Source of the DNA: Bacteroidota bacterium
GTDB taxonomy: Bacteria > Bacteroidota > Bacteroidia > M30B66
Length of the DNA: 64,000 bases
Direction of reading: 5' to 3'
Assembly: GCA_027490225.1 (NCBI GenBank)
Contig: JAIXYK010000062.1
Span: 1 to 64,000, forward strand
The translations under genes and the position numbers were made by a program. Position 1 is the stretch's first letter, and each line of letters begins with the position of its first letter. This document shows positions 1 through 60,650 of this stretch, one piece after another. Below the pieces are notes generated by a model. It saw only the letters and a list, made by a program, of their open reading frames with translations. It made no database searches and was not told where the DNA came from.

Positions 1-91
1 TCAACTTTTAACTTTCAACTTTTAACTTTCAACTTTTAACTTTCAACTTTTAACTTTCAACTTTTAACTTTCAACTTTTAACTTTCAACTT
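1..91. repeat. 14-bp tandem repeat, about 6.5 copies
   Basis: Perfect tandem copies of the unit TCAACTTTTAACTT run from the left edge of the window to about base 91, so the array is probably longer to the left. The array overlaps the last codons and stop of the minus-strand glycosyltransferase gene, whose TGA stop (71-73) is itself part of a repeat unit. It looks like a simple-sequence minisatellite; no function can be read from it. Confidence 0.95.
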
Positions 92-56186: not shown

Positions 56187-57293
56187 CTAGGGTTTATATT
56201 CCGAATAAGTAATAAATGTTTTACCATCGTAAAGGTAGAGACCTGTTTCTCTCGTACCCACCCAAATATTTCCACTTTTATCCTCCAAAATAGTCCAAAT
56301 TCCAAGATTTGGAAGTCCGTCTTTTGTTGAAAAACTAATGAAAGCTTTACCATCATAACGGCAAAGCCCATCACCACCAAACCATAGATTACCGTTTTTG
56401 TCTTCAATAATCTTTGCAACTAAACCATAATTACCTGGCAAACCATCACTTTTTGTAAAACTTGTAAATGTTTTTCCGTCATAACGGTAAGCACCAGCCC
56501 AATTGCTGAACCAGATATTCCCATTTTTGTCCTGTAATTGAGGCCAAGCCCAGCTATGATTAATAATTCTATCCTTTTCGAATCGTGCCGACTCGTTTAT
56601 AATTGTTAGTTCTTTTAGTTCAAAATTGGTGATGGTTTTTCCATCATAACGATACACACCTTTGTTGGTTCTTCCTCCTAACCAAATGTTTCCAGCTTTA
56701 TCTTCAAAAACACGTTCAACCTTATCGTTGCTGCTCAAAAATCCATTTTCGGCCTCAACAATTGGAAACAGATTAAAAGATTTTCCATCGTAGATATAAA
56801 CACCATCTATTGTTGCGAACCAAAGTTTCCCTGAATGATCTTGCATGATATCTTGCACAATATGTGTTTGATAAAACTTATTAGTGTTTGGTGGAAGGTT
56901 TTTGGGAAGCGGAATTTGAATTTCAGTAAACATTTTACCGTTTGCACTGAGCGTTGGAGAAGGGTTGTAAATATTTAGACCATTTTTAGTACCTATCCAA
57001 ATTTTTCCCTCTTTATCTTGTAAGATGTCGTTGATGGAATTACTATTTAATCCATCGGCCTCCAAAAACTGCTGAAACGATTTTCCGTCATATTTATACA
57101 GACCATTTTCTGTGGTTCCGAACCAAAGATTACCAGCATTGTCTTGCAGGCTGCAATAAATATTGCCATACCTTGGGTCACCAATGGTTTTTATAAGTTT
57201 TGGATGTTCTTTTTCTTCTTGTAATTCTTTTTTAACTGGAGGTTTGCAGGCACTAACAAAAAGTAATATAGTTAAGAAAGTAAATATTTGCAT
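56187..57293 (-). CDS. Seven-blade propeller lipoprotein (two-component-regulator propeller type)
   Basis: About 368 residues from the ATG at 57293, with lipobox FVSAC. The body holds seven repeats of the pattern LQDxxGNxWFGTxxGLYxYDGKSF, matching a single seven-blade beta-propeller of the Reg_prop type usually found as the sensor of hybrid two-component proteins. Here the propeller is free-standing and lipid-anchored, without kinase parts. The start at 57293 lies after the stop of the upstream TonB_C gene (57305); longer starts would overlap it. Confidence 0.8.
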   Translation of the reverse strand: MQIFTFLTILLFVSACKPPVKKELQEEKEHPKLIKTIGDPRYGNIYCSLQDNAGNLWFGTTENGLYKYDGKSFQQFLEADGLNSNSINDILQDKEGKIWIGTKNGLNIYNPSPTLSANGKMFTEIQIPLPKNLPPNTNKFYQTHIVQDIMQDHSGKLWFATIDGVYIYDGKSFNLFPIVEAENGFLSSNDKVERVFEDKAGNIWLGGRTNKGVYRYDGKTITNFELKELTIINESARFEKDRIINHSWAWPQLQDKNGNIWFSNWAGAYRYDGKTFTSFTKSDGLPGNYGLVAKIIEDKNGNLWFGGDGLCRYDGKAFISFSTKDGLPNLGIWTILEDKSGNIWVGTRETGLYLYDGKTFITYSEYKP

Positions 57294-57304
57294 ATGTGCT
57301 TTAT

Positions 57305-58090
57305 CTAACATCCTCCGCCAAAAGCAACATAAAAGTCCTGACTTACTCTTGTCCCATTTAAAATCATTGCAGGTTTCCATTTTGGCATCTTTTTAAGAAC
57401 ATCTAAAATTAGCAAATTAATTTTATTGTCTTTTGCTTGATACATTAATTGAACATTAACAATTTGACCAACTTCATTTATGGTGAATTTTGCATTAATT
57501 GCTGCTGCATTTTTAGCTCCAACTGGATTAATAAAATTATTTGTAAGATAGGCTGTTGCTTGTTTATAACCTCCGGGAAACTCAGCTTCTTGGTCAGGAA
57601 TTACAGCTATATTAATTTCTCCAGTTTTAATTTTACTCACAAATTCAGGACTATCGTAAGGTTGTTTTTTAATTTTGAATTTTATCTTTATGTTGATATC
57701 TGAATTTAAATCGGCATTACTCAGTAATAATTTCTGCTGTGGACTTAACAATAAACTTGTATTCTGCATAGAACTTGATTTCTGATTACTTATAACAGTA
57801 ATCTCTGAAGATATAAAATCAATTAAATTAGTGTAATTTTCTTTTTCATAAGTATTGAATCCTGAAGTGTAATCATAAGATTTTCTTTGCCTTAACTCTT
57901 CATTTACTCCCCCAGGCATCATCATATTTTTCCAGAAATCAGGACTTATCTCATGCAGAAATTTTACATCATTCAATTTACCAAATTTAATTGATGGATT
58001 TTTTCCACCTGTAAATTCAAATTTAAATTCCTGAGCTTTTCCAATTATTGAAAAAAGCAATACCATTAATGAAATTTGTAGTTTTTTCAT
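57305..58090 (-). CDS. Exported protein with TonB C-terminal-like domain
   Basis: 261 residues: signal peptide (1-19), an unrecognised middle region, and a C-terminal TonB_C-like domain (about 165-261; EAEFPGGYKQATAYLTNN, AKFTINEVGQIVNVQL, LKKMPKWKPA). Without an N-terminal anchor or Pro-rich stretch it is not a classical TonB. Such periplasmic TonB_C proteins are common in Bacteroidota. It is followed 12 bp later by the propeller lipoprotein and probably co-transcribed. Confidence 0.75.
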   Translation of the reverse strand: MKKLQISLMVLLFSIIGKAQEFKFEFTGGKNPSIKFGKLNDVKFLHEISPDFWKNMMMPGGVNEELRQRKSYDYTSGFNTYEKENYTNLIDFISSEITVISNQKSSSMQNTSLLLSPQQKLLLSNADLNSDINIKIKFKIKKQPYDSPEFVSKIKTGEINIAVIPDQEAEFPGGYKQATAYLTNNFINPVGAKNAAAINAKFTINEVGQIVNVQLMYQAKDNKINLLILDVLKKMPKWKPAMILNGTRVSQDFYVAFGGGC

Positions 58091-58123: not shown

Positions 58124-58522
58124 TTACATTGGTTGCATTGCTTTGATTGACATTACATACTTACTTACTGCATCTTTTTCTGAATCAGTAAGTTTTGCTT
58201 TTTCTGACATGTCTTCCAAAATGTTTGTCCAAGCAGCTGCTGAATATTTATAAATGTTATTGGTATTATGACATTTTGTGCAAGCTCCTTCAGTATATAT
58301 TTTATAACCTGCTGTAAGTTTTTCTAAAGTAACTCCTGGGAACTTTGATTGAATCGCGTTTACTTCTTCTATTCCCGGTGCGTGAGTTCCATTCTTTATA
58401 GCAGGTTTTACTGTAGCAACTGGGGGTGTTTCAACGCTTTTGGCTTGCCTTGTTTTGTTAGCACCACAAGCTGCAAAAACTACAACAGTAAATATTATTA
58501 ATTGGACATTAAATTTTTTCAT
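58124..58522 (-). CDS. Monohaem cytochrome c-like lipoprotein
   Basis: 132 residues: lipobox FAAC (Cys19), a short linker and a haem-binding C81-TKC84-H85 followed by MSEKAKLTDSEKDAVSKYV, where a Met could be the sixth ligand. Likely an electron carrier or haem sensor in the periplasm. It lies 33 bp upstream of the TonB_C gene on the same strand and is divergent from the kinase operon. Confidence 0.8.
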   Translation of the reverse strand: MKKFNVQLIIFTVVVFAACGANKTRQAKSVETPPVATVKPAIKNGTHAPGIEEVNAIQSKFPGVTLEKLTAGYKIYTEGACTKCHNTNNIYKYSAAAWTNILEDMSEKAKLTDSEKDAVSKYVMSIKAMQPM

Positions 58523-58542: not shown

Positions 58543-58550
58543 CAAATATA
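58543..58550 (-). promoter_or_regulatory. Candidate -7 box (TATATTTG) for the cytochrome gene
   Basis: Minus-strand TATATTTG, 21 bp before the ATG; the nearest upstream TTG is 25 bp away. Confidence 0.5.
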
Positions 58551-58641
58551 ATTAACACTTATTAGAATTAACATGCAAAAATATTACTTAGTTTCATATT
58601 TAATTCTGGACAAAGAAAGCAATCATTTAGAGATTATTTTG

Positions 58642-58680
58642 TTATTGACTAGTTATTGGTTTGTTAATGACTTGTTAATG
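58642..58680 (+). promoter_or_regulatory. Four TTAWTG hexamers with exact 11-bp period
   Basis: TTATTG begins at 58642 and 58653, and TTAATG at 58664 and 58675. OmpR/PhoB-family regulators bind tandem direct repeats with 11-bp periodicity, and the downstream operon encodes such a regulator. The array ends just before the -33 region of the kinase promoter (-7 at 58705), which is activator geometry. Autoregulation is inferred. Confidence 0.6.
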
Positions 58681-58704
58681 TGATAAAGATGACTTGAAAA
58701 AGGA

Positions 58705-58712
58705 TAATTTTG
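58705..58712 (+). promoter_or_regulatory. Candidate -7 box (TAATTTTG) for the kinase/regulator operon
   Basis: Fits TAnnTTTG and ends 8 bp before the ATG at 58721, so the mRNA would be nearly leaderless. Confidence 0.5.
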
Positions 58713-58720
58713 CACTTGAA

Positions 58721-59962
58721 ATGAAGACCAGGCGTATTTATGTATTTATTGTAATTGCTTCCATTGCTTTATTATCTGTGTTAATAATACAAGTAAACTG
58801 GATTTTCGCGACAGCCAAAATAAAGGAAGATTTATTTAATGAAAAGGCAAATATGGTGCTTTCCAGAACAAATGATGCTTTAAGCGCCGATAAGGAAACT
58901 TACAATGAAATTGCAACTTGTGTTCAGAATGATAGTACAACTCAAACAACTACAAGATTAGGAAACAATGAGGTTCGGAAAATTGATTCTTTATTTAATT
59001 ATTATTTGAATTACTACAATTTTAAAATTGATTACAAGTTTGTGGTTGCAAAACCAAATGTTGTAGGTTTTAACAATGGCGGAAGCTTTGAAAAATCTTT
59101 GAAACCAAAAGATTCTAAAAACAAAGCATTTGAATTAAAATTAATTTTCCCTGATAAGAAGAAATTTATAATTGCAGAAATGGGAACCATGTTTATCACT
59201 TCTGTTTTATTGATATTTATTGTATTATTTCTTTTCTGGCTCACAGTTAAATCGCTTATCAGAGAAAAAACCATCGCAGAGCATACAACAGATTTTTTGA
59301 ATAATATGACGCATGAATTTAAAACTCCTTTAACCAACATTTCCTTGGCAGTAAAGATGATTCATAGAGAAGCTAGCGTTAAAAATGAAGAAAAAATGTT
59401 GCATTATTCAAGTATAATTTTCGATGAAAATGAGAAGTTAAAGCACCAGGTAGAGCAAGTTTTGAGCATGACAGCCTTAGAAAAAGGCGAAATTCCATTG
59501 CAACAAGAATTAATTGATTTTCATGATTTAATAAATGATTCAATAAAATATTTAAGCCTGCAAATTGAAAACAAAGAATGCAATATTAATGTACAATTAG
59601 CTGCTGAAAAATCAATTATTTCTGGAGATAAATTACATTTGAGAAATACTATTAGCAACTTAATTGACAATGCAATTAAATATTCTCCTATAAAACCCGA
59701 ATTAAATATTATGACTTCCAATGCAGGAAACAGTTTTATTTTTAAAATTAGTGATAATGGAATTGGAATTAAAAAGGAATTTCAACAAAAAGTATTCGAT
59801 AAATTTTTTAGAGTTCCAACTGGCGATTTGCACAATGTAAAAGGCTTTGGGCTTGGTTTAGCATACATAAAAAATATTGTAGAAATGCATAATGGAGCAA
59901 TACATCTTGAAAGTGAAATAAATGAAGGAACAGCTTTTATAATATCACTTCCAAATGCATAA
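58721..59962 (+). CDS. Sensor histidine kinase
   Basis: About 413 residues from the ATG at 58721: TM1 (about 6-26), a periplasmic sensor of about 125 residues, TM2 (about 158-176), HisKA with phospho-acceptor His198 in NNMTHEFKTPLTN, and a HATPase_c with N box NLIDNAIKYS, G1 DNGIGI and G2 GFGLGLAY. No HAMP domain is evident. It pairs with the downstream response regulator (8-bp overlap). An in-frame TTG at 58694 would place the start inside the promoter. The signal is unknown. Confidence 0.9.
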   Translation: MKTRRIYVFIVIASIALLSVLIIQVNWIFATAKIKEDLFNEKANMVLSRTNDALSADKETYNEIATCVQNDSTTQTTTRLGNNEVRKIDSLFNYYLNYYNFKIDYKFVVAKPNVVGFNNGGSFEKSLKPKDSKNKAFELKLIFPDKKKFIIAEMGTMFITSVLLIFIVLFLFWLTVKSLIREKTIAEHTTDFLNNMTHEFKTPLTNISLAVKMIHREASVKNEEKMLHYSSIIFDENEKLKHQVEQVLSMTALEKGEIPLQQELIDFHDLINDSIKYLSLQIENKECNINVQLAAEKSIISGDKLHLRNTISNLIDNAIKYSPIKPELNIMTSNAGNSFIFKISDNGIGIKKEFQQKVFDKFFRVPTGDLHNVKGFGLGLAYIKNIVEMHNGAIHLESEINEGTAFIISLPNA

Positions 59963-60650
59963 AGAAAAGTATAACATATTATTAGCCGAAGATGATTTGA
60001 ATTTGGGCATCTTATTGGTCGATTTTCTTGAATCGGAAGGTTATAATGTAAAACTTTGCAAAGATGGAGAATTGGCATTAAAAGCAATAGAAATGAAGAC
60101 TTTCGACATTTGCTTGTTAGATGTTATGATGCCAAAAATGGATGGGTTTACCCTTGCAAAAGAAATTAAAAAGAAAGAAAAAAATATTCCAATTATATTT
60201 ATTACCGCTAAATCTTTAAAAGAAGATAAATTAAAAGGTTATGCCATTGGAGCTGACGATTATATTACGAAACCTTTTGATGAAGAAGAATTATTGTGGA
60301 AAATTAAAGCAATCATTAGAAGATTACCCAATAATACAGATGTTGTTGAAACGCTCATTCAAATTGGAGCTTACACCTTCGATTATCACAAGCAATCCTT
60401 AACAATTGAAAATTCAATAAAAAGAATTACTGAAAAAGAATGTGTTATACTTAAATACCTTTATTTAAATAGAAATAAAATAATTAAAAGGGAAGAAATT
60501 CTAAAAGAAATCTGGGGAAACAATGATTATTTTTTCGGACGTAGTTTAGATGTTTTTATCACTAAAATCAGGAAATATCTAAAAGAAGATGCTTCTTTAA
60601 ATATTGAAAATGTATTTGGAGTTGGGTTTATTTTTAATGTGAAAGAATAG
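59955..60650 (+). CDS. OmpR-family response regulator
   Basis: 231 residues: receiver with acidic pair EDD (12-14), phospho-acceptor Asp56 in LLDVMMP, Thr in FITAK and Lys in ITKPF; C-terminal winged helix (about 135-231; FGRSLDVFITKIRKYL). Resembles RprY-type regulators. It overlaps the kinase by 8 bp, so the two are co-translated. The 11-bp-spaced repeats upstream of the operon are its likely binding site. Confidence 0.93.
   Translation: MHKEKYNILLAEDDLNLGILLVDFLESEGYNVKLCKDGELALKAIEMKTFDICLLDVMMPKMDGFTLAKEIKKKEKNIPIIFITAKSLKEDKLKGYAIGADDYITKPFDEEELLWKIKAIIRRLPNNTDVVETLIQIGAYTFDYHKQSLTIENSIKRITEKECVILKYLYLNRNKIIKREEILKEIWGNNDYFFGRSLDVFITKIRKYLKEDASLNIENVFGVGFIFNVKE

Follow-up and report, generated by a model that had tools for sequence, protein, structure and literature searches.

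The region described here lies in the window, a stretch of 64,000 nucleotides from a Bacteroidota genome, where it separates an operon for a sensor histidine kinase and its response regulator from a divergently oriented exported-protein unit. Between the two stands a candidate operator array with promoter-type boxes on either side. The features, numbered from the first base of the window, are:

56187..57380, minus strand: third divergent gene, a two-component-regulator-type propeller protein (Reg_prop)
57305..58090, minus strand: second divergent gene, a TonB_C-like exported protein with a -GGGC end, the window copy falling below Pfam cut-offs
58124..58522, minus strand: first divergent gene, for a small exported lipoprotein that resembles c-type cytochromes and has the haem-type motif CTKCH, below Pfam cut-offs
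58543..58550, minus strand: possible alternative leftward -7 box TATATTTG (CAAATATA on the plus strand), about 20 bp upstream of the ATG of the cytochrome c-like gene; a pattern match only
58576..58583, minus strand: possible alternative leftward -7 box TATTTTTG (CAAAAATA on the plus strand), 65 bp left of the array; a pattern match only
58611..58618, minus strand: eroded leftward -7 box, CAAAGAAA on the plus strand and TTTCTTTG on the minus strand, exactly 30 bp left of the array
58641..58684, plus strand: candidate operator array of four 11-bp direct-repeat units with a period of exactly 11 bp and the core GTTAWYG in orthologs
58641-58651, plus strand: unit 1 of the array in the 11-mer reading, GTTATTGACTA
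58652-58662, plus strand: unit 2, likewise read as an 11-mer, GTTATTGGTTT
58663-58673, plus strand: unit 3, likewise, GTTAATGACTT
58674-58684, plus strand: unit 4, likewise, GTTAATGTGAT
58705..58712, plus strand: -7 box TAATTTTG of the kinase/regulator operon, TAnnTTTG-type, 31 bp past the last GTTA
58721..59962, plus strand: sensor histidine kinase of 413 aa (HisKA and HATPase_c)
59955..60650, plus strand: OmpR/PhoB-type response regulator of 231 aa (Response_reg, 106.8 bits; Trans_reg_C, 58.4 bits), presumed to bind the array

The operon next to the array had been predicted to encode an OmpR/PhoB-type regulator, and its second product has this architecture, combining a receiver with a winged-helix Trans_reg_C domain and being encoded together with a histidine kinase. 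The labels given to the divergent unit fared less evenly, that of the propeller being upheld by Reg_prop while those of cytochrome c and TonB_C are weak for the window's own copies; TonB_C is detected in the homologs of the second divergent protein at loci L005 and L009. A search for viral relatives of the cytochrome-like protein found none, and plasmid homologs were confined to partial matches (67-72%). The kinase/regulator pair is patchy in its distribution: a close kinase occurs in 12 of 295 genomes of the class and in none of nine genomes of the same family, and these nine hold no orthologs of the regulator, giving only RprY-like matches of 45-47%. This spread of 58721-60650 could reflect either loss or horizontal transfer.

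The original prediction placed TTATTG at 58642 and 58653 and TTAATG at 58664 and 58675, and all four hexamers are present in the sequence. The repeat is real, but TTAWTG alone does not describe its unit, which is better read as GTTAWYG followed by a semi-conserved spacer, an 11-mer that begins one base earlier. Runs of four TTAWTG at 11 bp appeared in 0 of 300 second-order Markov shuffles of the whole 64-kb window, and runs of three at about 0.003 per window. Among pair spacings of TTAWTG up to 40 bp, 11 bp alone stands out (five pairs, as against two or fewer at any other spacing). The genome scan at this period that had been proposed found GTTAWTGN4GTTAWTG three times within the array and once elsewhere (C44) in the 3.77-Mb genome, compared with two matches of the reversed-pattern control, so the single outside match is at chance level. 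Two GTTA units with TAnnTTTG at the right distance occur at this site alone in the genome, a pattern that is weak by itself because the control pattern yields three. A separate repeat, with a 14-bp period, is found at the start of the window (window 1-60), where it extends over some hundred bases.

Promoters of Bacteroidota carry TAnnTTTG and a -33 element instead of the classical boxes. The array had been described as abutting the -33 zone of such a promoter, and its end does lie just upstream of that zone, which places tandem half-sites at about one helical turn next to a -7 box, itself followed after 8 nt by the kinase ATG. In the window promoter, no TTG was found where a -33 element would be expected. 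A TTG at this place is absent from 12 of the 13 promoters checked, the window's included, with L006 as the sole exception.

Relatives of the regulator were gathered by protein similarity, without regard to the promoter. The first set comprised seven close orthologs (L005-L010 and L014) with regulators 68-75% identical, and at all seven there are four GTTA units at exact 11-bp spacing and in the same register. A second set of nine loci was assembled by kinase orthology and fetched after the distance rule had been formed; L163 is the same DNA as L009, leaving eight distinct loci. Each of these eight has four GTTA units at 11 bp and CAAANNTA, a leftward TAnnTTTG, at 30 bp, while the right box lies at 31-33 bp in 7/8 and at 43 bp, one unit further, in L167. 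Loss of the hexamers in close relatives had been named in advance as the outcome that would speak against an operator; outside the window, the array is instead kept at every one of the 15 distinct orthologous loci, as is the left box CAAANNTA at 29-30 bp (15/15), and the right box falls 31-33 bp past the last unit in 14/15. At the array locus L007, CAAATGTA is intact.

This conservation has the shape of a footprint. When eight promoters (the window and the seven close orthologs) were aligned, mean column identity reached 0.866 over the array, 0.891 over the left box and 0.984 over the -7 box. The kinase coding sequence gave 0.80, and the non-coding flanks gave 0.57 (far left), 0.66 (left gap), 0.69 (right spacer) and 0.53 (leader). 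Among related kinase genes more broadly, 24 of 69 have at least three GTTA units at 10-11 bp upstream, whereas 200 shuffles and the reversed, complement and reverse-complement patterns gave none. The distances are equally constrained: in arrays of at least three units with an exact TAnnTTTG nearby, the interval between the last GTTA and that box's TA peaks sharply at 30-33 bp, and in 13 arrays of at least three units CAAANNTA starts 29-30 bp before the first GTTA.

Judged from sequence, the array is very probably the operator of the adjacent response regulator, serving positive autoregulation and, in relatives, the divergent unit as well, the latter probably in weakened form here. The kinase would phosphorylate the response regulator, and two regulator dimers could then lie side by side, head to tail on the four half-sites and on one face of the helix, covering 44 bp in the manner of ArcA and PhoB. 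The bound dimers would substitute for the missing -33 element and aid RNA polymerase at the TAATTTTG box, so that the kinase/regulator operon would be positively autoregulated. Standing between two divergent promoters at fixed distances, the same bound array would also drive the divergent exported-protein unit in relatives.

The original prediction had the array shared with the divergent unit. This agrees well with the relatives, where the left box never strays from its distance and two-way control is strongly supported as the general state of the clade. The claim is less secure in the window, and less secure there than that of autoregulation, because the left box has kept CAAA and lost TA where relatives read CAAANNTA, and because 118 bp separate the array from the divergent ATG, as against about 45-75 bp in relatives. 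Divergent control in this genome may have been weakened, moved or lost. There is a considerable, if lesser, chance that the array serves the kinase/regulator operon only and that the divergent genes have moved to a promoter of their own; the eroded box and the lengthened distance both favour this, and so does CAAATATA at 58543, which, like the match at 58576, is closer to the divergent ATG than the eroded box at 58611. Such a move sits less well with the retained pairing of the array with cytochrome-like and TonB_C-like genes, and with the survival of both CAAA and the 30-bp spacing.

An exported protein is the divergent partner at nearly every array locus, although its family varies, and the labels that follow come mostly from sequence reading rather than profile search. 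CxxCH lipoproteins resembling the window's first divergent gene occupy this place at L005, L006, L007 and L161, TonB_C-like proteins at L009 and L167, and a propeller-like protein at L166; small Cys-rich proteins do so at L011-L013, L015, L016, L018, L024, L045, L160, L164 and L165, DUF1573-like proteins at L021 and L047, and a GLPGLI-like protein, read from sequence, at L074. The window's divergent unit joins three kinds, cytochrome-like, TonB_C-like and propeller, that are found separately in relatives.

Two further observations concern these proteins. A Gly-Cys-stop end is usual in the exported protein of the divergent unit (the window's 57305-58090 on the minus strand, L005-L010, L160-L162, L166 and L167), and the proteins so tailed belong to unrelated families (TonB_C-like, propeller, 200-aa proteins and 60-71-aa lipoproteins). 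Among 522 ORFs of at least 120 aa from the loci sampled, nine end in GC and all nine are array-linked; elsewhere in the class, a broad family of TonB_C-like proteins shares the -GC end without arrays. The idea that these tails pair with a conserved cysteine of the kinase's sensor region was considered and rejected, the cysteines varying among orthologs in an alignment that was partial, with two rows unusable. At L015 and L016, two genes lie left of the array and divergent to the kinase, the first for a small Cys-rich exported protein and the next for a membrane protein that carries CxxxCP motifs and is possibly a 4Fe-4S protein.

The pho boxes of PhoB and the TTAACA repeats of Bacillus subtilis PhoP are tandem 11-bp direct repeats that replace the -35 element at activated promoters. 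Activation is favoured over repression in the present analysis because 12 of 13 promoters lack a TTG in the -33 zone and because the array ends just upstream of it, as in PhoB-activated promoters. The sign of regulation is nevertheless the least certain step. Bound at the array, which abuts the polymerase site, the regulator could instead cover the -33 zone and repress its own operon; in the RprXY system of Bacteroides and Porphyromonas, RprY binds its own promoter in gel shifts and the authors proposed the Porphyromonas gingivalis protein to be a repressor (PMC3646045). We consider such negative autoregulation unlikely, since the general absence of a -33-zone TTG fits activator-dependent promoters and the fixed distance from array to -7 box on both sides, upstream of each, is an activator-like position. 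Autoregulation as such would be ordinary for the group, because the PhoP of Riemerella anatipestifer and P. gingivalis RprY both bind their own promoters.

The reach of the proposed activator appears to be short. A search of its own genome for the paired motif with one mismatch allowed gave 32 matches, compared with 60 for the reversed control, and hence no further targets can be claimed there; strict pairs away from kinases in seven close genomes were likewise at control level (eight, against ten for the control). With no targets above control in these eight genomes, the data suggest a circuit of local reach and not a large regulon. One candidate second target is a two-unit site in the genome of L006 (L142, positions 1471-1518; GTTAATGAGTTGTTATTG), which precedes a lipoprotein gene and has its left -7 box at a distance of exactly 30 bp.

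The promoter pattern was also sought by itself, as the left box with three units, in 395 Bacteroidota genomes. It matched 17 times, against none for the reversed pattern used as control, and seven of the 17 sites lie upstream of histidine kinase genes, five confirmed by Pfam (L122, L123, L132, L133 and L137), one carrying the HEFKTP motif (L134) and one having a kinase-like N-terminus only (L129). Left box and array also occur without a kinase at L124-L128, L130 and L131, next to genes that include a LysE-type transporter, an ABC-F-like protein, CorA and a phosphoesterase, and other members of the regulator superfamily may act at these sites.

In a tree of 83 regulators, that of the window falls in an eight-member clade (100/99) in which every member has an array, nested in a mostly array-bearing 30-member clade (97/91) to which 21 of the 24 regulators with at least three units belong. 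It lies outside the RprY clade, with which the other RprY-like regulator of the same genome (C38) groups, among Bacteroidales RprY. RprY is nevertheless its closest named regulator, scoring 258 bits against a cut-off of 370 with the model NF051850, a strict threshold in that a Porphyromonas protein of the RprY clade scores 359; the ArcA equivalog model gave 110 bits (cut-off 334) and the Bacteroidetes PhoB model NF053854 gave 184.9 (cut-off 270). The protein is best called an RprY-like paralog rather than RprY, and, unlike the members of its own clade, those of the RprY clade rarely have arrays at their promoters.

It is improbable that the true ligand is another regulator, whether C38, which as a related protein could bind similar sites, or a global factor. 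Pairs of GTTA units at 10 bp do occur in some promoters of the RprY clade (L035, L036, L042 and L046), and GTTAA-like repeats are also the ArcA motif and resemble that of R. anatipestifer PhoP. Arrays of at least three units, on the other hand, track the clade of the adjacent regulator: they accompany 24 of the 35 regulators that have a DVF recognition helix and none of the 26 that have the RprY-type DVY helix (Fisher 7e-9, uncorrected for relatedness). Another ligand of either kind is further disfavoured by the single-locus occurrence of the array in this genome and by the control-level result for non-kinase sites of close relatives. That the repeat arose by chance or simple-sequence slippage has a negligible probability, for although the window is 66% A+T and the unit AT-rich, the shuffle statistics, the footprint and the out-of-sample conservation at fixed distances all oppose it.

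As an operator of the adjacent response regulator, the array would be of a kind already known, namely the direct-repeat OmpR-type operator, with binding here predicted from the sequence. The core of ArcA sites is GTTAA-like. PhoB and B. subtilis PhoP share with the present system the tandem 11-bp direct repeats and the OmpR/PhoB winged-helix regulator, but differ from it in core sequence and promoter type. Sites of Escherichia coli ArcA consist of two to five direct repeats with 11-bp centre spacing, and the footprint at astC, which has four repeats, covers 44 bp and is ascribed to two dimers lying next to each other (PMC3798270). The array matches this in spacing, in its four units and in its length of 44 bp; ArcA, however, is a global regulator with many sites, whereas the strict array is confined to one locus and has a fixed four-unit geometry between divergent TAnnTTTG-type boxes.

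Within the phylum, R. anatipestifer PhoP of the PhoPR system has an ArcA-like motif, TTTAACA, and its binding site covers 35 nt in front of its own operon, the position predicted for the site of the window's regulator; it differs in having hundreds of peaks genome-wide (PMC9603813). For RprY, the accessible part of PMC3646045 reports no repeat motif. In the HbpS-SenS-SenR system of Streptomyces, a two-component system acts together with a secreted protein (PMC4991794), and it is comparable insofar as the divergent exported proteins of the present system may feed back on the kinase. TAACTGA heptamer repeats (PMC4679880) were considered as a match and rejected, since these heptamers are arranged in 7-nt steps near start codons.

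No description of a direct-repeat two-way operator with fixed two-sided geometry in Bacteroidota, or of how widely it occurs in the phylum, was found in the literature searched, which lay mostly outside subscription journals. We tentatively raise the possibility, itself rather doubtful, of a novel phylum-wide module in which a two-component system that activates itself is coupled to a single divergent exported-protein unit. Its parts would be, in order, a leftward -7 box, a gap of 30 bp, three to six GTTA units spaced at 10-11 bp, a gap of 31-33 bp and a rightward -7 box. In the clade of the window, the exported Gly-Cys-tailed protein may be sensed by the kinase or feed back on it. To our knowledge, few binding motifs have been established for OmpR-type regulators of Bacteroidota, and the array yields both a motif and an exact promoter geometry in the two directions. 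The rule derived from it, with one -7 box at 29-30 bp and the other at 31-33 bp, picks out additional kinase operons in the phylum, and the reversed pattern gives no matches. For two-component systems that are as yet uncharacterised, this geometry proposes a direct target, the exported protein, and with it a mechanism of activation that can be tested.
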